Assembly: GCA_028717385.1 (NCBI GenBank)
Contig: JAQUNW010000009.1
Coordinates: forward strand, 1 to 43,625
Direction: 5' to 3'
DNA from: Dehalococcoidales bacterium
Lineage (GTDB): Bacteria; Chloroflexota; Dehalococcoidia; Dehalococcoidales; CSSed11-197
DNA: 43,625 nt
The stretch's first letter is position 1. Each line of letters opens with the position of its first letter. Of the stretch, positions 24,769-41,004 are shown piece after piece. The notes beneath the pieces are model-generated. The model had not been told where the DNA came from, searched no databases, and saw nothing but the letters and a program-made list of their open reading frames with translations. The translations under genes were made by a program, and so were the position numbers.

Positions 24769-26046
24769 CTACTGGGGATTTTCCTGGCTGCCTTTTATCA
24801 GGGCTTCAACCACAGGAGCCAGCAGGTTGACCTCGTAACCTACAGAAACAAGATGTATATTGTTTTCATCAGCTTCAAAGAGGCCTGGCGCGTCAGCCTG
24901 ATTGGTTATCGTAATATTTTCATCTTTTGATGAAGTGGGAAGTGAATTTGAAGGATCTGTCTCGGTAAGATTCTGCTCATCGTTCGGGATTTCACCGGCA
25001 GTGACCTGAGCGACGGGTTCGGGCATAAAAGCCTGGTAAGCTTCATCTGGTATAGGGCCTCGACAGATGACAAAAACCCCGCATTTAGGTCGGAAAAAAA
25101 CCTGGTTTCGTTTAATACGTTCAACTTCTTGTTGACTGAACCAGCCATCTTGTTCTACGCACTCAATAATAATTTCCGGTCGGCAAAAACGGGAATAATC
25201 AGCTACGAGTGATAATTGTCGGAAGGTTGGACCTGCGTACATTACCATATCAGGCCAATCAAGCGCATAGTTATGCCATGATTTAATTCCTACCTCCCGG
25301 TATTGTAGCCATTCTCTATTAAGGCTGATATCCTTGACCATTCGCTGGGGCATATAAAGGTCGCGCCGGATAGAAGCATAACCTCCCAGCTTCTTCGATG
25401 ATATTATAATATCGGGAACCATATAAGCTGCCTCTTTGGCATGTTCAAGAGAGATCACTGATGTTTCCTGGGGGCTGGATATATTTTCTTGAATAGTTCC
25501 GGGCATTGGTTCGCCACCGCCTACCAAAGTCGCGTCTTCTTCGCTACCATATAGTGGTACCGTCATAGCCTTATCCCCGTCGAGAAGGCTCAGCAGCCCC
25601 ACAAATACCCAGTGCTCATAAGCATCGCGGAACATATCGGGAAAGGACTGTTCCAACTTTTCTTTTGCCATCTCCTCAAAGTCTTCAGTATCCAGTTTAC
25701 CTTTCAGCAGGTCAAAAAGCAGGTTAAATAACAATCGGCTTAAACCTTCCAGTGGATCATTAAGAAACCACTGTAAAGTGCTTTTGGGTTTTATTTCATC
25801 TACACCCAAGTGTTTTATTATGGTCTCCACAGTGGCGTTATAACTTTGGCTCAGGGATCTTGAGTAATCAACATATCCCTGTAAGTATTCTTTAATAAAA
25901 GCCAAACGGGTATTGTCAAATAAGTGATAAAAATCAGTTCGTACGTTTGCGGGGATACACTGGGAACTGGAGGTGATTTCAATACCGGGAGTCGCTCCGA
26001 TAAAACTCTTAAGATCGTTGTAAGCTTCCAGCCATTTCGATGACAT
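24769..26046 (-). CDS. Unknown 425-residue protein paired with the radical SAM gene
   Basis: No family recognised. AGGAGGAATTC precedes the ATG. The N-terminal half (1-180) is helical with Leu/Phe-rich stretches (LSRLLFNLLFDLLKGKL) but no clear signal peptide or membrane span. A middle part (210-345) has mixed alpha-beta character with Trp/Tyr-rich segments (KSWHNYALDWPDMVMYAGPTF) and ends in KCGVFVICRGPIPDEAYQAF. A Ser/Thr/Asn-rich acidic linker (about 345-395) leads to a short C-terminal segment. Its TAG stop is 12 bases from the radical SAM start, so the two are translated together; it may be a partner or substrate. Confidence 0.75.
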   Translation of the reverse strand: MSSKWLEAYNDLKSFIGATPGIEITSSSQCIPANVRTDFYHLFDNTRLAFIKEYLQGYVDYSRSLSQSYNATVETIIKHLGVDEIKPKSTLQWFLNDPLEGLSRLLFNLLFDLLKGKLDTEDFEEMAKEKLEQSFPDMFRDAYEHWVFVGLLSLLDGDKAMTVPLYGSEEDATLVGGGEPMPGTIQENISSPQETSVISLEHAKEAAYMVPDIIISSKKLGGYASIRRDLYMPQRMVKDISLNREWLQYREVGIKSWHNYALDWPDMVMYAGPTFRQLSLVADYSRFCRPEIIIECVEQDGWFSQQEVERIKRNQVFFRPKCGVFVICRGPIPDEAYQAFMPEPVAQVTAGEIPNDEQNLTETDPSNSLPTSSKDENITITNQADAPGLFEADENNIHLVSVGYEVNLLAPVVEALIKGSQENPQ

Positions 26047-26148: not shown

Positions 26149-27021
26149 TTACTTTTCTGTTATAGTCTGGTAATATAATTTATCGGCTTTGAAAGAGCTC
26201 CGCCATAGTGGAGCCGATACTATCCCCCTGAATCCCATTTGTTTGCCAATTGGTTCATATTGGCTAAATTCCTCTGGAGTAACAAAACGATAAACAGGAT
26301 ATTGGCTGCGTGAAGGAGCCAGGTATTGTCCCATTGTAAACAGATCGCAGTCTACCCGCCTCAAATCCCCCATGATTTCAAGAATCTCTTGATGGGTTTC
26401 TCCCATACCCAGCATTATGCCGGATTTGGTAATAATACCAGGATTAAATTCCTTCGCCCTTCTTAATACCTCAAGTGAAGTCTGATAATCGGCCATTGGC
26501 CGTACATTTGGATATAAGCGAGGTACGGTCTCCAAATTATGAGCAAATACATCAGGCTTTGCGTTGATTACTGTTTTTATAGCTCCATTATTACCCTGAA
26601 AATCGGGAACAAGGATCTCAACCACCACGCCCGGATTATCTTCTTTTAGTATATTAATCGTCATGGCAAACTGATTTGCGCCACCGTCAGGCAGGTCGTC
26701 CCGAGTCACTGATGTTAGAAAGACGTAGCGTAACTTGAGTCGTTTTACAGCTTCTGCAATACGGTATGGTTCACTCGGATCAGAAGGAGAAGGCGTTCCC
26801 CTGGATACAGCACAAAAAGTACAGTCTCGGGAACAATTGTTCCCGAGGATTAAAAAAGCCATTCCCCGGGGTAAGCATTGGGCGATATTGGGGCAACGGC
26901 CGCTTTCGCATATGGTATGTAGATTTAATCGTCGCAGCAAGTAATTTACTGGTTCAATTTCACCGGCACGAGGAGCTCTTTGTGTTAACCATGGAGCAGA
27001 GCGAGAAGAGCATTTTTCCAT
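26149..27021 (-). CDS. lipA: Lipoyl synthase
   Basis: 290 residues from ATG 27021. Inserts two sulfurs into protein-bound octanoyl to give lipoyl. The auxiliary cluster cysteines are Cys38, Cys43 and Cys49 (ICESGRCPNIAQC), the radical SAM cysteines Cys63, Cys67 and Cys70 (CSRDCTFC); also VTRDDLPDGGA, HNLETVPRLYPNVRP, KSGIMLGMGET and the C-terminal RSS whose Ser ligates the auxiliary cluster. The ATG lies one base after the TAA of the exported H-like gene, so translation is coupled and the H-like protein is the likely client. No lipB or lplA is in the window, so the octanoyl source is unknown. Confidence 0.96.
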   Translation of the reverse strand: MEKCSSRSAPWLTQRAPRAGEIEPVNYLLRRLNLHTICESGRCPNIAQCLPRGMAFLILGNNCSRDCTFCAVSRGTPSPSDPSEPYRIAEAVKRLKLRYVFLTSVTRDDLPDGGANQFAMTINILKEDNPGVVVEILVPDFQGNNGAIKTVINAKPDVFAHNLETVPRLYPNVRPMADYQTSLEVLRRAKEFNPGIITKSGIMLGMGETHQEILEIMGDLRRVDCDLFTMGQYLAPSRSQYPVYRFVTPEEFSQYEPIGKQMGFRGIVSAPLWRSSFKADKLYYQTITEK

Positions 27022-27022
27022 A

Positions 27023-27763
27023 TTATTCAATCAGGCCTCTGTCTCGTGCTTCTTCATCTGTAATTCTCTGGGAATAGGCATACTCCTCCGGTGTCAGTAA
27101 TAAATCAAGCTCCTCCGGTTTGTTTAATTCTATCGCGAGAAGCCAACCTTTCACATAAGGGCTTTGGTTAATCACTTCGGCATAACCGTACGGGGGGACA
27201 TTAAGCTCGTTATTTTTCCTGATTACCGTACCGCTGATTGGGCTGACCAGCTCAATATTCATTTTATAACCTTCAGCATAACCAAAGCTCTGATCGACCT
27301 GGATGCTATTCCCTACATCTTTGAGTGATATCGAGGATACTATATCCATCAACGCCTGCATTTTATCGGTAACGCCAATTACGACTATGTTGTTACCTGC
27401 TGGTTTTACCCAGATATGATCAATTGAATATAAACGGTCATCGGCTACCCGTGTATAACAACCCTGTATGTTTAATAAGTTGTAGTCCATTGTTGGGTTA
27501 TAAACAAACTCGTCGCTGGGATTGGTTGGCAAAACCGATGGGTCTGGAACATTGGTAGGGCTGATCGGGATGCCTGGTGTTGTATTTGGAACAGACGTAC
27601 TTGGGTTGGTTGTGGTTTCTGCGGAAGCACAAGAAATTGCCAACGTAGAAATTGTCAGACTCCCGGTAACCAGCCCGGCACTCTTGATAAAGTCACGCCT
27701 GGATATCGATTTCACTTCTTTGTCATTAGATGCGTGTTCGGAGTTATTTTTTCGGGAGCCCAC
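27023..27763 (-). CDS. Tat-exported GcvH-like lipoyl-domain protein
   Basis: 246 residues from GTG 27763, chosen because AAGGAGGG ends 4 bases upstream; an ATG at 27808 has no ribosome site. Residues 19-48 form a Tat signal: SISRRDFIK with Arg22-Arg23, a hydrophobic stretch, then LAISC with a possible lipobox Cys45. A Pro/Ser/Thr-rich linker (50-90) follows. The rest aligns with glycine-cleavage H protein: YSIDHIWV, VIGVTDKMQALMDIV, FGYAEGYKMNIELVSPISG, and the YVKGWLLAIELNKPEELDLLLTPEEY end. Lys167 occupies the place of the lipoylated Lys. No gcvT, gcvP or dihydrolipoyl dehydrogenase gene is adjacent. H proteins are normally cytosolic, so export is unusual. Coupled to lipA. The 300 bases upstream show no other gene. 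Confidence 0.88.
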   Translation of the reverse strand: MGSRKNNSEHASNDKEVKSISRRDFIKSAGLVTGSLTISTLAISCASAETTTNPSTSVPNTTPGIPISPTNVPDPSVLPTNPSDEFVYNPTMDYNLLNIQGCYTRVADDRLYSIDHIWVKPAGNNIVVIGVTDKMQALMDIVSSISLKDVGNSIQVDQSFGYAEGYKMNIELVSPISGTVIRKNNELNVPPYGYAEVINQSPYVKGWLLAIELNKPEELDLLLTPEEYAYSQRITDEEARDRGLIE

Positions 27764-28062
27764 AGTGCCCTCCTTGCGCAAAGTTGCCGTAAAATCTAAT
27801 ATGCGCATATAAGCTTATTATTACTCTTATACTTTATCACCGCCGCAAACCGTAATCAAGGGTTTTGGCATTTTAATCACATAAAAATAGCGCGATCAGC
27901 ATTTTTCGGGCTGTTTTGGTATAAAAGAAATTCCAAAAAACCTCCAAAATAAATCCGAATTAAACACACTTGAGAGAATTTCAATTTCGTAAGTTAAAGA
28001 CTCATTTTAAATTAATAATGTGCGTCAACTAGTTCTAATCCAAATATATGCTGCGTTATACC

Positions 28063-28710
28063 TTATAAGTGGATTACACCGCCAATTCCCTGTAAAAGGA
28101 AAAAAGCCCCCAAAATAACTAATACCAGACCGGACAAACGTCGCATCCTTTCAAGTCCAATACGACTGACAAGCAGGTTGATAAAACCCCTTCCTGCTAC
28201 TCCAAACGCGATAACCAGAAGCGATGAAGCGATACCGAAACAAAGCATAAAAACCATTACTTCGAAAATAGACGATAAATTTACTGTGTACATTAAAGCA
28301 GCAAGCAGGGGTACGCATGGCCGCAAACCTACCAGCAAACCCATGATAAAATGTGGTTTACCGGATGAGATTCCTCTACAAGCTTTAGCTATCGGTCGTT
28401 GGCTGAAATTGAAAGCGCCAAGTGTGTTTAAACCATGCAGAACCAGAACCAGACTCAGAATAATAGTTACTATAGGAGTCATCAAAGGGCTGATATTCAT
28501 AGAGCCCATTATCCAGGCAACGATGATCCCCAAGGCCATATAAGAAATTAGCCTACCGGCTGAAAAAAGCAGAACTGTCTTGAGCCCACCCAGAATCCGG
28601 GTACTGCTCTGTGAGGCCAGATAGGGAATCAGTATAGGAAAACATACCGCTGTGCAGGAAGTGCTAGCGCTGAACCCGATTGACATACCCGTTGCAATCA
28701 AAGTTAACAT
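28063..28710 (-). CDS. CcdA/DsbD-like membrane thiol transporter (TauE/SafE-like annotation possible)
   Basis: 215 residues, six predicted membrane helices. Two cysteines lie in Pro-containing helix contexts: Cys23 in AVCFPILIPYL and Cys132 in RPCVPLLAALM, which match the SPCVLPLIPGYL and TPCIGPVL positions of CcdA/DsbD. Extra cysteines are at 19, 111 and 157. CcdA proteins move reducing equivalents from cytosolic thioredoxin to exported thiol proteins. It begins 9 bases after the NapH-like gene. The next gene downstream, across a gap of about 300 bases, is the exported H-like protein. A general 'sulfite exporter TauE/SafE' label is also possible. Confidence 0.75.
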   Translation of the reverse strand: MLTLIATGMSIGFSASTSCTAVCFPILIPYLASQSSTRILGGLKTVLLFSAGRLISYMALGIIVAWIMGSMNISPLMTPIVTIILSLVLVLHGLNTLGAFNFSQRPIAKACRGISSGKPHFIMGLLVGLRPCVPLLAALMYTVNLSSIFEVMVFMLCFGIASSLLVIAFGVAGRGFINLLVSRIGLERMRRLSGLVLVILGAFFLLQGIGGVIHL

Positions 28711-28719
28711 AAATTGTTT

Positions 28720-29874
28720 TTAACCTATCACCCTGGGGAATATATCCACCATTATAATAACAAACCAGATATAGAGAGAAAGGGCTGCAATGATTGTCAG
28801 TCCAATAAAAATCCCCCTGACTTTTTTTCGGGTATTCACAAAGCAGATTTCGATGGCATCCTCCGGGCATGCTTCCATGCAACGGCCGCACCTGGTGCAG
28901 TCGTCGCCGGGATTTTTGTCTTTTTCAATAGTTTCAGGCGTAATAGTATACATTCGGCATTCATCAACGCAATCATAGCACTTTATGCATTTATTCTTGT
29001 CAACCTTAATCCTGAATAGGCTGATGCGATTAACCAGGCCGAAACTGGCACCGATAGGGCAAATCAGGCACCACCAACGTCGTTTTGTCATGAATGGAAG
29101 GATAATAGCAAAAACAATAATAATTGCCACCATTACCCATAATACGAACAATGGCTCCAACCAGAATACCGGGCAGAATACGCATACCAGTGGAAATGAC
29201 AAAAAAATGGATAAAAGAACTACAACAATCAACAAGCCATATTTGGTATCCTTCACCCACTCTTTTAAACCGGCATAACTGAATCCGCTTCTGGTGCTGA
29301 CCTTACGTTTCAACGCATCAAGTTTCCAACGAACTCTTTTGCCGGTTACGAATATCTCGGTAAGACCGCCAAATGGGCAAAGCCAGCCGCAAACTCCACG
29401 ACCAAAGAGAAGCCCGATGGTAACGTATGGAATTAAAGTGAGCAAAAATGCGTTCAGGGTGGTGGGGAATTTGATGTTCCAGGTTGAAGCATAATCAAGA
29501 TACTGGGCTTTTCCCAGCCAGACTTGCGGAACGTCACGCGTACAAGGAAAACTCTGCGTACCGCTTGAAGTTTGACCTTGCAGGTAGTATTCTTTTTCGT
29601 GTATATCTGCCCAGCTCAAGAAAGCTCCCATTCCCATCTGGGCAATTACCACAACGATTGATGCTATTACCAACAGATTGAGTCCTATAAAGAACAGCCG
29701 TCGTCCTGTTTCCATTCTTGAAGAAGTCAGCAGATAGTATGTAAATAATCCACCAAGGATGCCTATGGCAAACCCTAACCAGGGGAATGGGTCAAAATAC
29801 CACCATAAGCCGAAGCCCCCCACAATGATAGCACCTATCAAGGCTTTCTTTTTTGACTTTATGGCTGGTTTCAT
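28720..29874 (-). CDS. NapH-like membrane polyferredoxin
   Basis: 384 residues with about eight membrane helices. Four-Cys/Pro loops typical of the NapH/NosR/CcoG group: Cys162-x3-Cys166-Pro (GRGVCGWLCPFG), Cys231-x2-Cys234-Pro and Cys269-x2-Cys272-Pro. Two regular [4Fe-4S] motifs follow on the C-terminal loop: Cys296, 299, 302, 306 and Cys326, 329, 332, 336-Pro. A large loop at 85-140 lies between helices. Such proteins pass electrons between the quinone pool and Fe-S partners. GGAGG precedes the ATG. It follows the HgdB-type genes and precedes the CcdA-like gene in one transcript; a role in exchange with the membrane is inferred. Confidence 0.88.
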   Translation of the reverse strand: MKPAIKSKKKALIGAIIVGGFGLWWYFDPFPWLGFAIGILGGLFTYYLLTSSRMETGRRLFFIGLNLLVIASIVVVIAQMGMGAFLSWADIHEKEYYLQGQTSSGTQSFPCTRDVPQVWLGKAQYLDYASTWNIKFPTTLNAFLLTLIPYVTIGLLFGRGVCGWLCPFGGLTEIFVTGKRVRWKLDALKRKVSTRSGFSYAGLKEWVKDTKYGLLIVVVLLSIFLSFPLVCVFCPVFWLEPLFVLWVMVAIIIVFAIILPFMTKRRWWCLICPIGASFGLVNRISLFRIKVDKNKCIKCYDCVDECRMYTITPETIEKDKNPGDDCTRCGRCMEACPEDAIEICFVNTRKKVRGIFIGLTIIAALSLYIWFVIIMVDIFPRVIG

Positions 29875-29909: not shown

Positions 29910-31124
29910 TTAATACCTGTTCATTTCAATAAATGCCCGAATCAGGTATTCGGTTTTTTCGTTATCTTGCAGCGGCAAAGAGGTCTCAATGGAAAGAACC
30001 GGGATTTCCATCTCTTGTTTGATAATATCACGCACAATTCTTTCACTACCGGGCAGGTTTCTTGACCCAATTGTGCTGTTGATGATGACTGCATCTGCTT
30101 TTTGGCGCTGAATGAACGGTATAGTTGCTCTAATTCGTTCCATAGTAGGCATATTTGTTGGCATGTTCCATATCCAGTGGGCCAGGTTATCGAGTATGGA
30201 TCCATCCTGAGGAATCAGCTTGTAATAGAGTGCCAGCCTGAAATCAGCGCCGACAACCTGTCCGCCGCAATCTTCAATCATTTTAAAAAGTTGAAACTGT
30301 TGAGTTTCATCCCCCATCATAAATATGCGGAGGGGTTCATCAGGAGTATTTGAGGTAGCCTTTTCCACTCTCTGTCTTAGCTCACAGATAATTTGATCAT
30401 AGATGCGATGTGTTTCTCTGGGGTTTGGAAAATAATCCGTAGATGCCAGATGCAGCATATAGTATTCAAGTGCGCTTAATGGTCTCCCTGGGGAGCAAGC
30501 CAACTCGTCAATCTCTTGCAACTGCTGGCGTATTCTATTTCCATTAATAACAGCATCAGAAAGAGATTGACTTGTGACTTTAACACCGGTGGTATATTGT
30601 AACCACTGAAATAATTGTTCAAGCTCAGCTTTGAGAAATTTTATCGCCCATTTTTCCGAATCTGAATCCCAGCGGGGAATTTCCCAGAAATACACCGGGG
30701 TGCCAAGCTTTTCAGATAATGCCTGCCAGGTTTTTTTAGTCTGGTCGTCCCAGTTGCCGCAAGAGATTGCAGCGCCCGATAATGTGGTTTTGGTTGCGCC
30801 AGAAGCCATGCTCCCTGCCATGATAAGGTTCCATGGGTTGTATTCTGGGCTCAGCCCGGTATCAACACCATTGTTGACCAAATCGAAGTTTTCATTCATT
30901 ACCGAATGGATGATTGTCTCCCGGGTATAGGGATCATAAGCCAACCCTCCAGCAGCGTAAATCAATTCGGGTGGTGACAAAGGCGTTTTGGCAATTATTT
31001 TATTTTCCGAATCCGGGAATTTTAATGATCCACCATTGAAAAGGTGCAAAAATTCAGAAAAACTGTCAAAATTCTTGTCGAATATAAGACGGCTGTACCC
31101 TGGGGAGCTATGTATTTCAGACAT
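29910..31124 (-). CDS. 2-hydroxyacyl-CoA dehydratase/BcrB-type subunit, cluster-poor
   Basis: 404 residues, same overall fold as its upstream neighbour, starting by a TAATG overlap with it. Motifs that align: PPELIYAAGGLAYDP with the family EELILAAGMIPVRL, and ISCGNWDDQTKKTWQALSEKLGTPVYFWEIPR with the second Cys region. Only Cys122 of the usual three cluster ligands is kept; the first is replaced (GLSPEYNPW where the partner has DSCPYARSC) and the third by NSTIGSR. It is therefore unlikely to hold a standard [4Fe-4S] cluster. It probably forms a heterodimer with the cluster-bearing neighbour. Product name is inferred from alignment by eye. Confidence 0.8.
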   Translation of the reverse strand: MSEIHSSPGYSRLIFDKNFDSFSEFLHLFNGGSLKFPDSENKIIAKTPLSPPELIYAAGGLAYDPYTRETIIHSVMNENFDLVNNGVDTGLSPEYNPWNLIMAGSMASGATKTTLSGAAISCGNWDDQTKKTWQALSEKLGTPVYFWEIPRWDSDSEKWAIKFLKAELEQLFQWLQYTTGVKVTSQSLSDAVINGNRIRQQLQEIDELACSPGRPLSALEYYMLHLASTDYFPNPRETHRIYDQIICELRQRVEKATSNTPDEPLRIFMMGDETQQFQLFKMIEDCGGQVVGADFRLALYYKLIPQDGSILDNLAHWIWNMPTNMPTMERIRATIPFIQRQKADAVIINSTIGSRNLPGSERIVRDIIKQEMEIPVLSIETSLPLQDNEKTEYLIRAFIEMNRY

Positions 31125-32305
31125 TACCTGCCCTCCATCATTTCAATAAAAGCTTCTACCTTGGTCTTTATTGTTCCAATGTCAGCCGGAGAGTATTCAG
31201 CTTCGATCAATAAAGTTGGAGTTGCCAGTTTTTGCTGGGCAACATCTCGGATAGCTTTGAATTCTGCCCGCCAGGTGTCGCAGTATTTCAAGCTGTAATA
31301 GATAATTCCAGCTACGTTGTAATCTCGTATTATCTTTACAATCCGGCCAAGCCGTTTTGGCAGGTCTGTCATGAAAGGGCAGGGTATATTATACAAATAC
31401 CTTTCAGCCAGAGCGTCCATAGGATTACCTGCCAAACCAAACATGGTCACCCGTTTCCGGGCAAACATCGAGCCGGTACATATGGAGTCAGCTACTATGT
31501 TGCCGCCAGCCTGTTCGATAATATCCAGTACTTTATTATCTCCCTGGGCTATAATACTTCCGCATATCATCAGGCGCGGCCGGGTGTCTTTTATCGATTT
31601 ATTTGGGCGGATTTTAGCAAGTTGTTTGTTAAATTTTATCAGTTCATTAAGATATAATAGCCTGTCCATGGTAAATCCAGCCTGGGCTATTCGGAAAACG
31701 TTTCTCCACTCGATCGGAGTGCGTTTATCAACCGGGTATTCGAATAAACGCCATAGCTGTTCTCTTATTTGGTTATTTATCCTGATAGCCTGTTTAATTT
31801 TGCTGGAAGTGATATTCTGGCCGGACAAAGCCTCCAGCCGGCTGGCAAGCAGGTTGAGCTCGTTTTTGAAATAATCCAGAGCGTGCGTTTTGGAGCGCAG
31901 CCGGTCATGAGATTGGGTTATTCCCAATGGGAATGAGGGAACGCCAAGGTACTCCGCCCAATACTCCTGGTTTTTTCGCATGCTGTCACAGGTATAAGCA
32001 ACACAAATTGCATCAACATTAGAGTATATCGGATTTCCCTGTTTTTGAAAGCCAAGGCAAGATCGAGCATAAGGGCAGCTGTCGGCTTTTAAATAATCTT
32101 CACCGGCTGTCACTGCTTCAATATCACCCCCCTGAGCGAGGCGTACGGGGATCATGCCCGCAGCCAGAATCAGCTCTTCTGGTACATGAGGACAAAAATA
32201 GCCGACGACTTTTTTCCCCTCTGCTTTGGCTTGAATGATCCTGACGGAATCCGTTTCTATCCTTTCTTCTAGCGGAGCCAGCAGAATACTATCGTATGTG
32301 TTCAC
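31124..32305 (-). CDS. 2-hydroxyacyl-CoA dehydratase/benzoyl-CoA reductase-type subunit (HgdB/BcrC family)
   Basis: 393 residues from a GTG with AGGAG upstream. Full set of family motifs: GYFCPHVPEELILAAGMIPVRL, DSCPYARSCLG (Cys77, Cys83), AYTCDSMRK (Cys106) and LKYCD near residue 345. These cysteines ligate the active-site cluster in HgdB, BcrB/BcrC and relatives. The family performs radical dehydration of 2-hydroxyacyl-CoA or ATP-dependent ring reduction, each needing an activator ATPase, encoded just upstream. The specific substrate cannot be read from sequence. It overlaps the next gene by one base. Confidence 0.9.
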   Translation of the reverse strand: MNTYDSILLAPLEERIETDSVRIIQAKAEGKKVVGYFCPHVPEELILAAGMIPVRLAQGGDIEAVTAGEDYLKADSCPYARSCLGFQKQGNPIYSNVDAICVAYTCDSMRKNQEYWAEYLGVPSFPLGITQSHDRLRSKTHALDYFKNELNLLASRLEALSGQNITSSKIKQAIRINNQIREQLWRLFEYPVDKRTPIEWRNVFRIAQAGFTMDRLLYLNELIKFNKQLAKIRPNKSIKDTRPRLMICGSIIAQGDNKVLDIIEQAGGNIVADSICTGSMFARKRVTMFGLAGNPMDALAERYLYNIPCPFMTDLPKRLGRIVKIIRDYNVAGIIYYSLKYCDTWRAEFKAIRDVAQQKLATPTLLIEAEYSPADIGTIKTKVEAFIEMMEGR

Positions 32306-32322
32306 AGTGTTGTCTCCTAGCT

Positions 32323-33129
32323 TTATTTTGTTGTACCAGCCTTAAGCAAATCCTCGGCAATCAAAGCCGCCCCCAAGGCGCCAATGAGTTGGGGATCAAT
32401 ATCTGTTGGTACTATGATTTCAGTACCCAACTCTTGCTCCAGTGCATATTTGACTCCGCTGTTTTTAGCGACACCGCCAGTCATCATTACAACGGGTTTT
32501 ACTCCTAATCGATTAGCCATCGTGCCGACTCGTCCGGCTATAGAGCTATGCAAGCCGGCAATGATGTTCTCCTTGCTTTCTCCGGCAGCTAAAAGAGAGA
32601 TAATCTCCGTTTGGGCAAATACGGTACACATGCTTGAAATTTTGCATATTTCAGTTGAAGCCGCAGATAAATTTCCAAGATCTTCAAGAGGTACGTGCAA
32701 TACTAACTGGGCAGCTGATTCTAAAAACCGACCAGTGCCGGAAGCGCACTTGTCATTTATTACGAAATCGACCACTTTACCACTCGAATCTACCGATATC
32801 ACCTTGGAATCCTGACCGCCGATATCAATGACAGTCTTGATATCCGGTGACACAAAGTGGGCGCCGCGTCCGTGACAGGTTATTTCAGTCACTGTCTTAT
32901 CCGCAAAAGATGCACTTACTCTTCCATACCCTGTTACCACAGTGAACCCAAGCAAGGATTTATCATAACCGGAATCGATTATGGCGGACTCCATGATCTC
33001 CCGGCCTGCATGTGCCGGATTTGAACCGGTTGGTTCGATTCTGCCCAGCAGAAATTCGCCATTTTTCAGGATTACTGCTTTCGCTGTTGTGCTACCAATA
33101 TCGACCCCGGCTACGATGTATTCTGTCAT
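32323..33129 (-). CDS. BadF/HgdC-type ATPase activator
   Basis: 268 residues from ATG 33129, fixed by AGGAGG upstream; an in-frame extension lacks family sequence. ASKHA ATPase with VDIGSTTAKAVIL at the N-terminus, VTGYGR, IDIGGQDSKVI and a C-terminal GGVAKNSGV. Cys128 (NDKCASGTGRF) and Cys168 (SSMCTVFAQTE) each come from one subunit of the dimer and together bind a bridging [4Fe-4S] cluster. On ATP hydrolysis it injects a low-potential electron into the dehydratase/reductase. It lies 17 bases before the HgdB-type gene and 31 after AOR, so probably works with its neighbours. Electrons could come from the ferredoxin upstream. Confidence 0.94.
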   Translation of the reverse strand: MTEYIVAGVDIGSTTAKAVILKNGEFLLGRIEPTGSNPAHAGREIMESAIIDSGYDKSLLGFTVVTGYGRVSASFADKTVTEITCHGRGAHFVSPDIKTVIDIGGQDSKVISVDSSGKVVDFVINDKCASGTGRFLESAAQLVLHVPLEDLGNLSAASTEICKISSMCTVFAQTEIISLLAAGESKENIIAGLHSSIAGRVGTMANRLGVKPVVMMTGGVAKNSGVKYALEQELGTEIIVPTDIDPQLIGALGAALIAEDLLKAGTTK

Positions 33130-33160
33130 TGACAACCTCCTTATTTTGTTATCAGTTATC

Positions 33161-35077
33161 CTAATTCGGTAATAATCCCAATCTTGCCATTTCATCAGCA
33201 ACATGCCCAAGGCCCAGCTGTTCGTACTTGGTTCTGGTTGGCCAACCGGTGATGGTATCCCAGCCGCGTTGCTTGTAATAATTATCTACCATTAAAGAAA
33301 AACCGCCTTCATCTATTATTGATCCCGTTGTTCCATCAGGGCGTTTGAAAAAAGGCAAAATCTCGTTAACTTCTTGCTCTCTGCTTCGGTCGTGATTTCG
33401 GATAAGCACTGCCCTTTGCAGATTTTTTAACCTCTCTCCGATGAAGTCCAGCTCTTCTTCAGAAGTATCCCGACCGGTAACTGCAGATAAAAACTTTGAT
33501 TCAGCGCTGGAGAAATGAACAATAGGAAACGCCCAATCGCACAACGTAAGGGAGCATTTTATTTCTGAGCGATGCTCGTCCCAAATAGCCATCTTAGGCC
33601 CGATATCGCTTTTATAGGGATCTTTTTTAAATTTCTCCAGGTCATCAGCCTTTGAACGATGGTGTGTATCATTGTTGGAATCCCTGGTTTGAGTCATCCA
33701 GGTTAAGGCTCTGAGTAGCCAGTCGGGATAAGGTAGAGATGCATTTATGCCTCTACCGCTATAATGCGCGGCATACCCCCAAGCTTGCTGAAGGCTCACT
33801 GGTGTAGGCCGGTCAACTCCTTTATAGCGTCGAATACCTGTATATATGGTTTCGCCAAATTTTTCTTTTCCCAGGGTGCTTATTGCCCGGCTTGTTCCTT
33901 CAGCCAGTAAGTCACCGAAATCTTGCCTATATGCAATCTGGTTGAGTAGTTTTACCCACCATTCGGGCTTTTCTGGTTCTATGATTAAACCGGTTTCGCT
34001 TGCTGAAAAGAGACCTTCGTGTGCACACATTACCAGCCACGGAACCATTCCACCCAAGATTTCATACTGGTTCAAGCCCAAGTCATTGGTTAGCTCGATA
34101 ACTTCAAGCCCTCTTTCAATGTTGTGTGACCACAATGGCCACTCGACTCCAGGTTCCTCTCCGTGATCATCGCTTTGCTGCCAGCCGGCAGCCAGTTTAC
34201 CGATACAAGCAAAATCAGAACAATGGAATCCACCACGGGTTGATCTGGGAACATTTAACAATGCTGGCATGCAGTATCTATCGCAAGATTGAGAGCAAGA
34301 AAGTTTGAACCTCGGCCAGGGTATATTCTTGAGAGTTTGTCCAAAATATTCCAGATCCTCATACTGTGTCAGAGGATTTTTTGCTGGTATGCGGGCAATG
34401 TCACTGCGCCTTTGTAATAATTCAACAGGTCGAGCTATGCGAATTGAGCCCGATCCCTTTACGCTTATTGCTTTAAGATTCTTGGAACCAGCGACTCCTC
34501 CAAATCCGCCCTGGCCAGCTGCATTGCCGCTGTCGGTAAGCATAATTGCAATTCTGGATTTTTTCTCACCTGCTGGCCCGATTACCAGATTGCACGAATC
34601 CTTTCCATGTATTCTTTTTAATTCGTGCTGGGTTGCGTAGATACCCAAACCCCACAAATACCGTGCATCCCTGATTTCAGCGTTACCATCAGTGATACAT
34701 ACGTAACAAGGTGAAGGAGCAGCTCCTCGAATAATAACTGCATCGAATCCACTGTATTTAAGTTTGGGGCCGAACCAGCCACCGATACCAGAATGTGAAT
34801 ACATCTCCGGTATGCTCTGCGGAGATACACCACCGACCTCCATTCTGCCCGAAGTGGGAGCTGGTGTACCCGTGAGCGGGCCAGTTGAAAGCATAAGGCA
34901 ATTATCTGGGCTAAAAGCGCTTGTTCCTTTGGGAATATGCTCCCAAGCCAGACAATGCATTAGCCCTTTTCCGCCGATATATTCAAAAGCGTATTTCTCA
35001 GTAGCGATCTTTGAAATACGCCCGCTTCCCAAATCTATATCCAAAATATTTCCTGCCCAGCCATAAAGCTCGCTCAA
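33161..35077 (-). CDS. Aldehyde:ferredoxin oxidoreductase family (tungsten type)
   Basis: 638 residues from TTG 35077; the TTG is 1 base from the ferredoxin stop and GGAGGG lies 8 bases upstream. AOR proteins carry a W-bis-pterin and one [4Fe-4S] cluster. Seen: N-terminal GWAGNILDIDL, FEYIGGKGL, SGFDAVIIRG, cluster cysteines Cys261-x3-Cys265-x3-Cys269 with the fourth probably Cys513 (LTLCDWAFPI), and a C-terminal IIDEGGFSLMVDNYYKQRGWD. It belongs to the broad AOR/BamB-like family; the exact reaction (aldehyde oxidation, or carboxylate or aryl-CoA chemistry) is not evident. No signal peptide is present, although its ferredoxin partner has one. Confidence 0.93.
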   Translation of the reverse strand: MSELYGWAGNILDIDLGSGRISKIATEKYAFEYIGGKGLMHCLAWEHIPKGTSAFSPDNCLMLSTGPLTGTPAPTSGRMEVGGVSPQSIPEMYSHSGIGGWFGPKLKYSGFDAVIIRGAAPSPCYVCITDGNAEIRDARYLWGLGIYATQHELKRIHGKDSCNLVIGPAGEKKSRIAIMLTDSGNAAGQGGFGGVAGSKNLKAISVKGSGSIRIARPVELLQRRSDIARIPAKNPLTQYEDLEYFGQTLKNIPWPRFKLSCSQSCDRYCMPALLNVPRSTRGGFHCSDFACIGKLAAGWQQSDDHGEEPGVEWPLWSHNIERGLEVIELTNDLGLNQYEILGGMVPWLVMCAHEGLFSASETGLIIEPEKPEWWVKLLNQIAYRQDFGDLLAEGTSRAISTLGKEKFGETIYTGIRRYKGVDRPTPVSLQQAWGYAAHYSGRGINASLPYPDWLLRALTWMTQTRDSNNDTHHRSKADDLEKFKKDPYKSDIGPKMAIWDEHRSEIKCSLTLCDWAFPIVHFSSAESKFLSAVTGRDTSEEELDFIGERLKNLQRAVLIRNHDRSREQEVNEILPFFKRPDGTTGSIIDEGGFSLMVDNYYKQRGWDTITGWPTRTKYEQLGLGHVADEMARLGLLPN

Positions 35078-35078
35078 A

Positions 35079-35645
35079 TTATCTTCCCTCCATTTTCAGA
35101 CATTGGGCAGGGCAAAACTCAATGCAGGCAGGTCCGGCTGGCCTGTTCCTGCACATATCGCACATTCGCACAATCTGTTGTTCAGGATCGAAACTGATTC
35201 TAGGTGGTTCCAGCGTACAGGCTTTAACGCATTCTTTGCAGCCTTGGGTACATTCATTGGAATTGATATAACGTATTCCTGATCCCCCTTCAATACACAA
35301 CGCTTTATCTCTTTGAGGGCAGGCAAAATAACAGGAGGGATAATCGCATTGCAAACAGGTAAGTACTTGATAGGTCAGGCTATCTTCGTTTTTATTCAGC
35401 CATATGCGGCGTAGATTAGGGCCAACTGCACCATCATGAAAAACAGAGCAAACTAACTCGCAGGTCTCACAACCTGTGCAAACCGATTCGTTCGTTGCCG
35501 TTTGAGTCAATCGGTTATTAGGTTTAAGAACATTCGTAGAAACGGGGTTCCTTGAATACAGAGCTGCGGCACCACTTCCAGCTAATAAACCACCTGCAGC
35601 CAGACTGGCGTCTTTAATAAATTCCCTTCGGGTTATTTTACTCAA
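35079..35645 (-). CDS. Tat-signal four-cluster ferredoxin, AOR partner
   Basis: 188 residues from a TTG (MSKITRREFIK). Tat signal: Arg6-Arg7, TRREFIKDA and a hydrophobic stretch to about residue 30; no lipobox. Four [4Fe-4S] motifs: Cys56/59/62/66; Cys97/100/105/109-Pro; Cys132/136/139/143; Cys162/165/174/178-Pro, the pattern of DmsB/HycB-type electron-transfer subunits. The stop lies 1 base before the AOR start, so the two are coupled and probably a complex. The Tat signal implies export, possibly carrying AOR with it. It is the first gene of the seven-gene redox operon, with TATAAT at 35665-35670 upstream. Confidence 0.9.
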   Translation of the reverse strand: MSKITRREFIKDASLAAGGLLAGSGAAALYSRNPVSTNVLKPNNRLTQTATNESVCTGCETCELVCSVFHDGAVGPNLRRIWLNKNEDSLTYQVLTCLQCDYPSCYFACPQRDKALCIEGGSGIRYINSNECTQGCKECVKACTLEPPRISFDPEQQIVRMCDMCRNRPAGPACIEFCPAQCLKMEGR

Positions 35646-37072: not shown

Positions 37073-38023
37073 TTATGCTAAAGAAACTATTGCCCGCTTG
37101 ACCAGAGTTTTGGTCAGTTGGATAAGCCATTTGTTATAAGGGAGAGGCACTGCCCCCTTCACAGCTTCTGTAGCTACTGCTTCAGCATTGGTTTCGTTGA
37201 TTGCTTTACCCTTAAGTGCATTCTCTGCCCCAGTAACACGCCATGGCCGGGTAACACAGCCGCCAAGTACGATTTTACAATCGTTGACATTAGAGCCTGA
37301 CATGGTAGCCACGATAGCAACGCAGGACACTGGGAAGTCGAAAGACTTTCTTAAAGCGTACCTTGAATAAATCTGCTTGGTCCCGGAAGCTGGTGCGGGT
37401 ACCTGGATTTCGGTAACCAATTCATCGGCACCCAAATTATTGCCCAGGGCAGTATAAAAGTCGGCAATCGGGATACTTTTTTTGTTGGTTACAATAGTTG
37501 CCCCAAGAGCAGTCAGCGGAATAGCGGTGTCGGAAGGGAAGGGAGAAAAGCATCCTTGACCGCCAAGAATAGCATGATAAGTATTATTCCCTGGAACCGC
37601 CTGGCAAATCACCCCGCCTTTTCTGAGACAGTGGAAGTAGTTGTTGGCAGCCCGATAATACCAGCACCTGGATTCTTGGCACAGATTACCGGCAATGGTG
37701 CCCATGTTCCTTATCTGAGGAGTGGCAACCCTTCCGGCAGCTTCGGCCAAACAGCTCCATTTGCCCTTGACTACGGAAGACTCATTAATATCGGTTAGCC
37801 TGGTAAGAGCACCAATTTTCAATACGCCGCTTTCTTCCTTGATGTAATCGAGGTTGGGTATGTTTTTCAGGTTGACAACCGTTTCCGGCTGTGTTGGATT
37901 GATGTAGTCTATTAACGTAGTGAGTAAATCGGTTCCTCCAGCCATAAGAGTGGCTTTACCTGCACCTTTGAGGCTGGCTGCTTCAGCAACTGTCGCTGCA
38001 TTTACGTGTTTAAAAATATTCAT
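37073..38023 (-). CDS. Molybdenum hydroxylase FAD subunit with Cys-rich (HcrB-like) loop
   Basis: 316 residues from ATG 38023, fixed by AAGGAGGT 7 bases upstream; the longer frame is not family-like. FAD-binding CutM-type domain: MAGGTDLLT (28-35) and IRNMGTIAGNLCQ (104-116), then a C-terminal CO-dehydrogenase flavoprotein-like domain (ALRKSFDFPVSCVAIV). Between FAD motifs an insertion carries Cys115, 120, 132, 140 and 158 (CWYYRAANNYFHC, LRKGGVIC, GGQGCFSPFPSD). This resembles the [4Fe-4S] loop of 4-hydroxybenzoyl-CoA reductase beta subunit. It is the last gene of the operon, after the Mo subunit. No signal peptide. Confidence 0.87.
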   Translation of the reverse strand: MNIFKHVNAATVAEAASLKGAGKATLMAGGTDLLTTLIDYINPTQPETVVNLKNIPNLDYIKEESGVLKIGALTRLTDINESSVVKGKWSCLAEAAGRVATPQIRNMGTIAGNLCQESRCWYYRAANNYFHCLRKGGVICQAVPGNNTYHAILGGQGCFSPFPSDTAIPLTALGATIVTNKKSIPIADFYTALGNNLGADELVTEIQVPAPASGTKQIYSRYALRKSFDFPVSCVAIVATMSGSNVNDCKIVLGGCVTRPWRVTGAENALKGKAINETNAEAVATEAVKGAVPLPYNKWLIQLTKTLVKRAIVSLA

Positions 38024-38036
38024 CTTATTTACCTCC

Positions 38037-40271
38037 TTAAGCCTTTCCAAGCGCTTTGAGAATTTTCCACGGAGTAAACGGAGGTTCTTTAATCCATACG
38101 CCGATGGCATTGTAGATGGCGCAGGCTATAACGCTATATTGGGAAGCGACAGGTTCTCCAGCGCCGGTTGCCCCGTAAGGGCCAAGACCGCTAACACCTT
38201 CTCGAAGGACTTCCTGCAGAGCGTCATAAGGAATATCCAGGCTGGCTGGCCAGCGGTGATTAAGGAAGTTTGGATTCAAGCTGATGCCAGTTTCCCGATC
38301 GTAAATATGTTCAGCGAAGAAAGCTTGCCAGAACATATGATAGAGACCTGCCCATGCCTGGGCATGAGCACCATCGTAATAAATTACTCGTCCTATATCG
38401 GTAACTGCAGTCCATTTCAGTACTTCAACTTCGCCGCTTTCAGTATCAACGGCCACTTCGGCACCAGCGGCACAAGGGACCCTTTGGTTGGCAGGTGTTC
38501 CCGCTTTCCACGGGCCAACATCGAATTGAAGCACTGGATTCCAACCGGCTGAAGCTCGCCCGATAATTCTCTGATTTCGTGCGCAAACTTCTTTGTGAGT
38601 GATAGATTTGGAAGGATTGGATTTAAGGAATATCTTGCTATCCCGGGCATCCAGGTCTTCGGGGTTTACTTGCGGATCAAACATCTTAGCGGCTGCTTTA
38701 AACAGCTGCTCCCGTGCATCCCGTGCGGCTATGGTAAAAGCTGCACCGGCCTGGTTGGTGTTGGTACTACCAGCCTGCATGCCACCATCGGCAGTGACAG
38801 CTGTTGCGCCCCAATCGCCAGTCTTTACATCGTCATACTTGAGGCCCAACGTTTCAGCTACAAAGTGGCAGTGGGCTGTATTGGTACCACAGGAAGATCG
38901 GGCGATGCCGGCATTTATAAAACAGGTGCCGTCTGGTCTGAGTGTAATGATAGCACCTCGACCGGAGCCATATCCGCCGTGACCATCAAGATGCCCGGTC
39001 ACTGCCATGCCATGCTTACGGCCGTCATCAAGGGTTCTGGCGCCCGGGGCATGTTTATTAGATGCGTAGCCGATGGCTGCCGCTGAATCCAACAGGCATT
39101 CTCTTAATGTGTTGAAGGAAAATGCTACGCCACTGTCCTGATCTGGCTCCTCAATAGTCAGAATATTTTTCAACCTGAAGTCTAACGGATCCATACCCAG
39201 CTTTTCGGCCATGGCGTCCAGAGCGGTGTTCATCAGGAATGCTCCTGGTGGGTGCTGAACGCAGCGGTAATAGCCTGACGGGGGAGCATTGGTGATAACT
39301 CCGGTAACTTTAAAGTTGGCATTTGGGCACCGAAAACCAATTTGCAGACAATCTGGCAGAGCGTTATAAGGAGGGCTGGGATTGGTGCCGCCATCTCCCC
39401 AGAACTGGGCGTCGATAGCAGTTAGCGTACCATCACTTTTAGCTCCCAGTTTTATTTTGGACTTGCAGGCAAAATGAGTTACGCCACGGAAAAAGTTATC
39501 TCGTTTGTCCGTATGCAGGCTGACTATTTTGCCGGTCTTCTTGGCCAATGCGGCTGCAACGGCTTGTACTGCAGCCCGGCCACCGCCGAAACCGCCGCCG
39601 GCAGCATGGGTAAACACACGAACTTTATTGTGCGGCAGAGAGAAAAAGCCTGCAAAACCGCTATGTTCACCGTGAGGATTTTGGGTATCTACCCAAGCAT
39701 GCAGAATATCGTCCTGCCACCAGGCAGTGGTATTGCCGCCACCCATGGGGGCATTTTGCCAACGATTGGTCCACCCTGATTCATCTTCAATAGTGACATC
39801 GGCTTGCGCAAAGCCGGCTTCAACATCACCGCGAACGATATCGGTTCTGAGGGTGGTATTACCGTCCGGGAACAATCCTACCAAGGGAGCACCGGGTTCC
39901 ATTGCCTCATCCGGATCAACAACATGGGCTCTGGTCTCGTATGTGACTTTGATCAATGTCAGTGCGTGAGCAGCAGTGTTTTCGTCCTTGGCTGCAACAG
40001 CAGCTACTGCATCACCAACATGGAATTTGACCTCGGACCAGCCGGGAACATCTTCGTGGGTTACTACAGCTTCGACGCCATCAAGTTCCAATGCTTTGCT
40101 GGCATCAATGCTGACTACTTTAGCATGGGCGTGGGGGCAGCCTAAAATTTTAGCATGCAGTTTCTGCCCCATGAAAAGGTCGTTTGGAAACTCGATAGTA
40201 CCAGTAACGCATTCTACGGCTTGCTGATCGATATTTCCTGGCTTACCTATTACAGTTAATTCATCAGCCAT
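38037..40271 (-). CDS. Molybdenum hydroxylase large (Mo-cofactor) subunit
   Basis: 744 residues from ATG 40271; GGGAGG lies between this ATG and the one at 40289, so the later start is used. Xanthine-oxidase family. Seen: VTGTIEFPNDLFMGQKLHAKILGCPHAHAKV, GGGFGGGRAAVQ (Mo-cofactor contact), PPGAF-type loop near the middle, GSTNTNQAGAA, and the catalytic Glu706 in GATGAGEPV. No signal peptide; the start is one base past the 2Fe-2S subunit stop. In exported family members the Tat signal on the small subunit carries the folded complex out. The substrate is not clear; aldehyde or aryl-type compounds are possible. Confidence 0.94.
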   Translation of the reverse strand: MADELTVIGKPGNIDQQAVECVTGTIEFPNDLFMGQKLHAKILGCPHAHAKVVSIDASKALELDGVEAVVTHEDVPGWSEVKFHVGDAVAAVAAKDENTAAHALTLIKVTYETRAHVVDPDEAMEPGAPLVGLFPDGNTTLRTDIVRGDVEAGFAQADVTIEDESGWTNRWQNAPMGGGNTTAWWQDDILHAWVDTQNPHGEHSGFAGFFSLPHNKVRVFTHAAGGGFGGGRAAVQAVAAALAKKTGKIVSLHTDKRDNFFRGVTHFACKSKIKLGAKSDGTLTAIDAQFWGDGGTNPSPPYNALPDCLQIGFRCPNANFKVTGVITNAPPSGYYRCVQHPPGAFLMNTALDAMAEKLGMDPLDFRLKNILTIEEPDQDSGVAFSFNTLRECLLDSAAAIGYASNKHAPGARTLDDGRKHGMAVTGHLDGHGGYGSGRGAIITLRPDGTCFINAGIARSSCGTNTAHCHFVAETLGLKYDDVKTGDWGATAVTADGGMQAGSTNTNQAGAAFTIAARDAREQLFKAAAKMFDPQVNPEDLDARDSKIFLKSNPSKSITHKEVCARNQRIIGRASAGWNPVLQFDVGPWKAGTPANQRVPCAAGAEVAVDTESGEVEVLKWTAVTDIGRVIYYDGAHAQAWAGLYHMFWQAFFAEHIYDRETGISLNPNFLNHRWPASLDIPYDALQEVLREGVSGLGPYGATGAGEPVASQYSVIACAIYNAIGVWIKEPPFTPWKILKALGKA

Positions 40272-40272
40272 T

Positions 40273-41004
40273 TTAAGAACCTCCCTCATAGATCGACTGG
40301 ATATTGCGGTTCATGTTTCCACATGCGCAAATATGGCCGGATACAGCCTCGGCTACTTCTTCAAGGAGCGGATTCGGATTTTTTTCAAGTAGTGCAACGC
40401 CGGTCATCAGGAAACCAGGGGTGCACATGCCGCACTGGAAACCGCGGTTCTTTATGAATGAACGCTGAAGGGCGCTAAGTTCACCGTTGACTTTCAACCC
40501 TTCAACTGTCCTGATTACGGCACCGTCAGCTTCAATAGCTAACACCAGACATGAATATACCGTTCGGCCATTCATTATTACTGTACAAGCACCGCATTCA
40601 CCTCTCCAGCAGGGCACTTTGGTTCCCGGCAGCAGGCATTTCTCTCTAAGGGTGTAAGCCAATGTCCACTGGGGCTCGACTTTTAGTATGTAGTTGGTGC
40701 CATTCACATTCAGGGTTATTAAACCTTCGAGCCCTCCGCCTCCTTCCCCGTGCTGGGATTCCAGATGGGTTTTTAACGCCGCAAGAGTATCAAACTCCTG
40801 GGAATCGTAGGGGCATGCATACTTGGTTACCGTTCCACCTGCAACGGTGGTGGTTATCGTTTTGGTGACCGTTTCACCATTGCCACAGCCGGAGAGCAAT
40901 ATGGTTGAACCGACTGCAGTGCCGCCGACAACAATACCGGCGTTTTTTATAAATTGCCGGCGTGAGATTTGCCCGTCTTGGATTACCTTTTCTTCTTCAG
41001 GCAT
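40273..41004 (-). CDS. Molybdenum hydroxylase 2Fe-2S subunit, Tat lipoprotein
   Basis: 243 residues, larger than the usual 155-170. AAGGAGGG precedes the ATG. Tat signal with Arg15-Arg16 (ISRRQFIK), hydrophobic stretch, then a classical lipobox LLSGC (Cys40). Residues 60-86 look like a C2H2 finger with the second Cys replaced: YACPYDSQEF then His80 and His85. The core has [2Fe-2S] I Cys132/137/140/152 (CWRGECGACT) and [2Fe-2S] II Cys191/194/226/228 (CGMCTPG, CAC). First gene of the three-gene operon. Its function is electron transfer from Mo to FAD or an outside acceptor. A Tat signal on this subunit is known in PaoA of E. coli. Confidence 0.93.
   Translation of the reverse strand: MPEEEKVIQDGQISRRQFIKNAGIVVGGTAVGSTILLSGCGNGETVTKTITTTVAGGTVTKYACPYDSQEFDTLAALKTHLESQHGEGGGGLEGLITLNVNGTNYILKVEPQWTLAYTLREKCLLPGTKVPCWRGECGACTVIMNGRTVYSCLVLAIEADGAVIRTVEGLKVNGELSALQRSFIKNRGFQCGMCTPGFLMTGVALLEKNPNPLLEEVAEAVSGHICACGNMNRNIQSIYEGGS

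Follow-up and report, generated by a model that had tools for sequence, protein, structure and literature searches.

Protein-bound lipoate has, to our knowledge, been described so far in the cytosol or in organelles, and we know of no extracytoplasmic lipoyl protein, so that one would be the first; our search of the open-access literature found no earlier report of exported lipoyl proteins. In sulfur oxidation, LbpA serves as a lipoyl carrier (PMC6067878, PMC10332631), and dihydrolipoate is a known sulfur acceptor of rhodaneses (PMC6067878). In an uncultured anaerobic group, lipoate appears to be placed on a small carrier that is then exported and membrane-anchored outside.

The window, meaning the whole stretch of 43,625 nucleotides that was analysed, is contig C9 of a Dehalococcoidales genome (G000; 1.37 Mb, 96% complete). 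A 246-codon gene on its minus strand (27763–27023) and the signals within and before it are laid out as follows:

27023 to 27763, minus strand: putative exported H-protein-like lipoyl carrier, 246 aa, GTG start (sequence, Pfam, alignment, AF2 model)
27769 to 27775, minus strand: AAGGAGG ribosome-binding site of the H gene (sequence)
27695 to 27700, minus strand: twin-arginine codons Arg22-Arg23 of the Tat signal (SISRRDFIK)
27629 to 27631, minus strand: codon of the lipobox-type Cys45
27452 to 27628, minus strand: Pro/Ser/Thr-rich linker, about residues 46–104 (sequence; low pLDDT over most of it)
27077 to 27433, minus strand: GCV_H lipoyl domain, residues 111–229 (Pfam GCV_H 85.5 bits, cut-off 22.2; structure comparison)
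27263 to 27265, minus strand: codon of Lys167, predicted lipoylation site (EGYKM)

The AAGGAGG lies ahead of the GTG, and no similar site accompanies an alternative ATG further upstream at 27808, which makes the 246-residue start likely on sequence grounds. The protein reads SISRRDFIKSAGLVTGSLTISTLAISC, continues into the Pro/Ser/Thr linker and ends in the GCV_H domain. Sequence and hydropathy place a hydrophobic stretch between the twin arginines and Cys45, so that the twin-Arg motif, hydrophobic stretch and lipobox-position cysteine of a Tat lipoprotein are all present; the lipobox is atypical at its −3 position (AIS-C). The Pfam TAT_signal model does not match the window protein and gives its sister on contig C8 21.5 bits against a cut-off of 22.7. 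The N-terminal part of the sequence profile matches, weakly, the N-terminus of a PDB formate dehydrogenase, presumably its Tat signal. A first-pass annotation, made from the sequence, had proposed the Tat signal, the lipobox cysteine and the linker ahead of a full H-protein-like domain, and all of these hold up: the twin arginine is invariant in the 21 relatives with an N-terminus (21/21) and the cysteine in all 22 in which that region is present, so homologues do not begin after the Tat segment.

The domain itself is that of an H protein. An AF2 model built on 23 relatives has a mean pLDDT of 78, mostly 89–98 in the H domain and low in the signal and most of the linker; among solved structures it comes closest to H proteins (Foldseek TM 0.86 to target), and pea H protein 1htp superposes with a Z-score of 21.6 and an rmsd of 1.2 over 129 residues, which bears out the fold expected from the comparison with GcvH that had been called for. 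The lipoyl-lysine segment of solved H proteins aligns with Lys167, and this lysine is kept in 23 of 23 relatives rather than lost in most, which would have spoken against the first-pass reading. The window protein scores 72.6 bits with the gcvH equivalog model TIGR00527, whose cut-off is 115.85.

Among 156 genomes of the order, we found 23 exported H proteins in 14 genomes, largely MAGs, which belong to three families: that of the window, within its own genus (G000, G259, G261, G262, G263), f90 (G287, G288) and f3 (G113, G340, G341, G342, G344, G345, G348). Such an architecture, found 23 times in 14 genomes, is not due to chance, and the same recurrence led us to reject a MAG chimera or a frameshift artefact; the pattern is wider than the first-pass annotation saw. 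A diverged paralog in G113 (L042, 1498–2259), which has a Sec-type lipoprotein signal and has lost the lipoyl lysine, was left out of the set of 23. In a 400-genome sample of the phylum, full-length matches came from G000 and G113 only, all others starting at or near the H domain, and a scan of a contig database, with patterns tuned to this family, returned Dehalococcoidia MAGs together with mostly ordinary GcvH proteins of gcv operons. A tree of H domains (n = 92) groups 22 of the 23 exported proteins with weak support (84/74), the G262 protein standing apart, and places G261b nearest to the window protein, with 57% identity over 148 aa; this topology is as compatible with one origin of the exported group as with several.

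Around the window gene, the following neighbours are found:

26149 to 27021, minus strand: lipA, lipoyl synthase, 290 aa (TIGR00510, 342 bits against a cut-off of 310.25)
28063 to 28710, minus strand: CcdA/DsbD-type transmembrane protein (DsbD_2), candidate electron conduit (PF13386, 76 bits)
28720 to 29874, minus strand: NapH/MauN-like membrane polyferredoxin (profile searches)
24769 to 26046, minus strand: protein of 425 aa downstream of lipA, in the same position in L091 and near an exported H gene in L099
23434 to 24654, minus strand: radical-SAM-like protein after the 425-aa protein, also in L091
36304 to 36915, minus strand: membrane-anchored protein with two CxxCxG motifs

The lipA ATG, at 27021, lies one base beyond the stop codon of the H gene, just as had been read at first, and the encoded LipA keeps all six cluster cysteines in its CX4CX5C and CX3CX2C motifs. 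The gap between the H gene and the CcdA-type gene upstream of it is 300 bp, a distance at which a shared transcript is not a given. No Pfam match was obtained for the 425-aa protein. The two-CxxCxG protein shares 35% identity over 186 aa with its G113 homolog, and homologs lie directly upstream of exported H genes in that genome (L038, L041); it is a possible partner in the same cluster. Further along the window, a molybdenum-hydroxylase-like gene set of XDH type (37073–41004), with paralogous sets on contigs C15 and C29, includes a [2Fe-2S] subunit (40273–41004) that starts with a Tat signal and a lipobox-like cysteine. Beside the NapH-like gene, positions 29910–35645 hold an HgdD/BcrB-like pair, a BadF-type ATPase, an aldehyde ferredoxin oxidoreductase and a Tat-signal Fe-S protein; BcrABC-NapH genes also follow an operon in G287 (L096) of the type designated A below.

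Two more H-like proteins are encoded in the same genome. A paralog on contig C8, with SRRTFLK, TGC, a T/P linker and an H domain, sits on the minus strand in the order ArsP_1 permease, ArsF-like lipoprotein, ArsG/CcdA, exported H, LipB, LipA, where ArsG scores 239 bits (cut-off 200) and ArsF falls under its cut-off. Its LipB is the only LipB/LplA-family member that our search of G000 found; both in G000 and in G113 the sole genes of this family sit at exported-H operons, as does the only LipA of G113. The third protein, on contig C4 (L001, 1142–1923), is cytosolic and lies beside an AhpD-like gene, with which it possibly forms a lipoyl/AhpD peroxidase relay; it could be the main lipoyl client of G000, which counts against the exported role.

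Across the family, the neighbourhoods fall into four types. Type A runs ArsR, ArsP permease, ArsE thioredoxin, ArsF, ArsG/CcdA, exported H, LipB, LipA, some of these genes being identified at some loci only (C8 of G000, G263, G259, G287, G341, G342; partial in G261, G288, G262). Type B contains ArsR, ArsD, ArsA, a small membrane protein, CcdA, exported H and often LipB and LipA, in varying order (G113, G261, G287, G348, G345, G344). Type C is the window, with NapH-like, DsbD_2, exported H, LipA, 425-aa and radical-SAM-like genes, together with its orthologue L091, in which H and LipA are separated by a rhodanese lipoprotein and MauE/DoxX. In type D, the exported H follows the two-CxxCxG membrane protein (G113). 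Neighbours thus comprise LipA/LipB, CcdA and others; hdr-like genes and sLpl, LipS1 and LipS2 are absent among them.

For 15 of the 23 exported H genes, a same-strand LipA gene is found no more than 3 kb away; against an assumed rough chance of 2%, this gives a binomial probability of about 1e-20, with genome relatedness ignored. The proposed co-occurrence of Tat signal and lysine with an adjacent lipA thus stands as a common arrangement and fails as a universal one. G340 (95% complete) has an exported H and no LipA among the matches listed, and some members of the order that lack exported H also have LipA; since it occurs in genomes whose only H-like proteins are cytosolic, LipA was rejected as a strict exported-H marker in the order. 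CcdA-type genes are found within about 2 kb in 17/23 cases, and five of the 23 (G113a, G113b, G113e, G340, G262) have no CcdA- or MauE-type neighbour in the DNA examined. Paired cysteines are conserved in the ArsG- and CcdA-type partners, the presumed catalytic lysine position of LipB is variable in some relatives, and the order CcdA-LipB-LipA is kept in G262 and G346 without an H gene between. The fuller partner set, missed at first pass, is lipB, lipA and a CcdA-type conduit, often with ars genes.

Cytosolic H-like proteins were also seen paired with dihydrolipoamide dehydrogenase (L043, 4934–6702; L097, 2966–4783; L144, 3922–5691; L145, 2878–4751), the L043 and L144 pairs having YeeE-like and TusA-like sulfur genes nearby as well. 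In a Woesearchaeota MAG (L124, 6176–9980), a thioredoxin/CcdA-like membrane protein, a signal-less H-like protein, an exported thioredoxin-like protein and LplA are lined up, which independently hints at an association between lipoyl carriers and CcdA-type conduits.

We consider it probable that the window protein is a lipoylated H-protein-like carrier working outside the cytoplasmic membrane. More specifically, and with about even confidence, we propose a transmembrane dithiol relay in which CcdA/MauE-type conduits feed electrons to the lipoate that a Tat-exported H lipoprotein carries outside the membrane, served by dedicated lipoylation genes, for arsenic/organometal or sulfur chemistry. 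Architecture, conservation, gene linkage and the lack of classical lipoyl clients are observed; lipoylation, export, electron transfer and the acceptor we infer along the following lines. In the cytosol, LipB, encoded at the sister locus on C8, would put octanoate on Lys167, and LipA, the next gene at the window, would insert two sulfurs. The folded holo-protein would exit through Tat, which exports folded, cofactor-loaded proteins, so that lipoylation before export is consistent with this route, and either a lipid on Cys45 or an uncleaved signal helix would keep it at the membrane, with the H domain outside on its flexible linker. The CcdA/DsbD-type protein, or MauE/DoxX in one orthologous locus, would move cytosolic reducing equivalents to the lipoyl disulfide, and the dihydrolipoyl arm would hand its dithiol to an extracytoplasmic acceptor, thereby doing the job that the thioredoxin-fold carriers TlpA, ResA and CcmG do elsewhere. 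Type A and B relatives probably have an acceptor linked to arsenic or organometals; for the window locus, sulfane sulfur and metalloenzyme thiols are candidates. In the simplest reading, lipB and lipA are kept, at least partly, for the extracytoplasmic lipoyl carrier, and CcdA or MauE is the conduit.

Trivalent arsenic binds tightly to vicinal dithiols, and the exported dihydrolipoyl group may instead be a metalloid ligand that traps As(III) or organoarsenicals on the outer side of the membrane and keeps them or passes them to ArsP/ArsG-type transporters, with CcdA only keeping the ligand reduced. In types A and B, the surrounding ars genes speak for arsenic or organometal chemistry: type A includes an ArsR-family regulator with ECCVCE besides its ArsP_1 permease, ArsE thioredoxin, ArsF-like protein and ArsG, and type B has ArsD and ArsA that score over their curated cut-offs where tested, in G113, and at one locus a nearby Acr3. 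ArsEFG is linked to roxarsone and nitarsone in the part of PMC9144182 that cites Chen et al. 2019. As ArsF scores below its cut-off, membership of a named family is no proof that arsenic is the substrate, and neither the window locus nor its orthologue L091 has an adjacent ars gene, we hold this ligand role to be possible but unlikely.

Sulfur offers another acceptor chemistry, in which a rhodanese would move thiosulfate or polysulfide sulfur to the dihydrolipoyl arm of an extracytoplasmic sulfane-sulfur carrier, sulfide would be released, and electrons would arrive via MauE/DoxX or CcdA. The gene of the nearest relative is followed by a rhodanese-domain lipoprotein, MauE/DoxX and lipA, and this rhodanese favours sulfane sulfur because rhodaneses accept dihydrolipoate and LbpA carries lipoyl in sulfur oxidation (PMC6067878). 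The rhodanese is found at that one locus only, however, and the window has none between H and lipA, which leaves a sulfane-sulfur carrier doubtful.

The protein may also be exported but unlipoylated, or cytosolic with its N-terminal segment as an inward-facing anchor. The Lys-less, Sec-signal paralog in G113 shows that the H fold can persist without lipoate, but with the lysine, twin arginine and cysteine invariant as described and lipoylation genes in the same operons, we regard this as rather improbable.

No gcvT, gcvP or gcvL gene lies near the window H gene, as had been noted from the start, and GcvP and GcvT are missing from the whole of G000 and from G113. Searches of 13 of the 14 exported-H genomes gave no GcvP above cut-off, one weak 23-bit match lying below it, and no 2-oxoacid-dehydrogenase E2; the same GcvP and E2 searches were positive in most of 14 well-known control genomes. 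Classical lipoyl clients are therefore missing, and relatives do not have the adjacent gcv genes that would have argued for an ordinary H protein. Despite its H-protein fold and Pfam GCV_H match, a role as H protein of the glycine cleavage system or as lipoyl donor to 2-oxoacid dehydrogenases is hardly credible given the exported architecture and the sub-threshold equivalog score, and was rejected for want of GcvP/GcvT and of E2, respectively.

If a lipoyl arm does stand outside the membrane, the cell surface would hold a mobile, low-potential lipoyl dithiol, thiol relays would reach beyond thioredoxin folds, and the keeping of lipB and lipA in anaerobes without classical lipoyl enzymes would be partly explained. 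Arsenic poisons lipoyl enzymes, and the link to ars genes provides a testable tie between lipoate and arsenic.

Compared with known systems, the window protein shares with GcvH the fold, the lipoyl lysine and lipoylation enzymes of LipB/LipA type, but has a Tat signal and lipobox, lacks GcvP/GcvT in the genome and stays under the gcvH equivalog cut-off. Like LbpA of the sHdr system, it is a putative GcvH-like lipoyl carrier outside glycine cleavage with dedicated lipoylation genes adjacent; LbpA, however, belongs to a cytoplasmic pathway with sLpl(AB)/LipS1/LipS2 (PMC6067878, PMC10332631), whereas the exported proteins go with LipB/LipA, an export signal and CcdA. AhpD/lipoyl-protein peroxidase relays likewise use a lipoyl protein as thiol donor to a non-dehydrogenase partner, but are cytosolic. 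Type A and B relatives lie inside ArsEFG, ArsP or ArsDA clusters with ArsR, unlike the window locus, and we know of no ars system with an exported lipoyl protein plus lipB/lipA. Finally, as in the relays of CcdA/DsbD with ResA, CcmG or TlpA, a transmembrane two-Cys conduit adjoins an exported, membrane-held thiol carrier; the linked paired-Cys CcdA/DsbD-type protein is present, but in place of a CxxC thioredoxin fold the carrier has an H fold with a predicted lipoyl dithiol.
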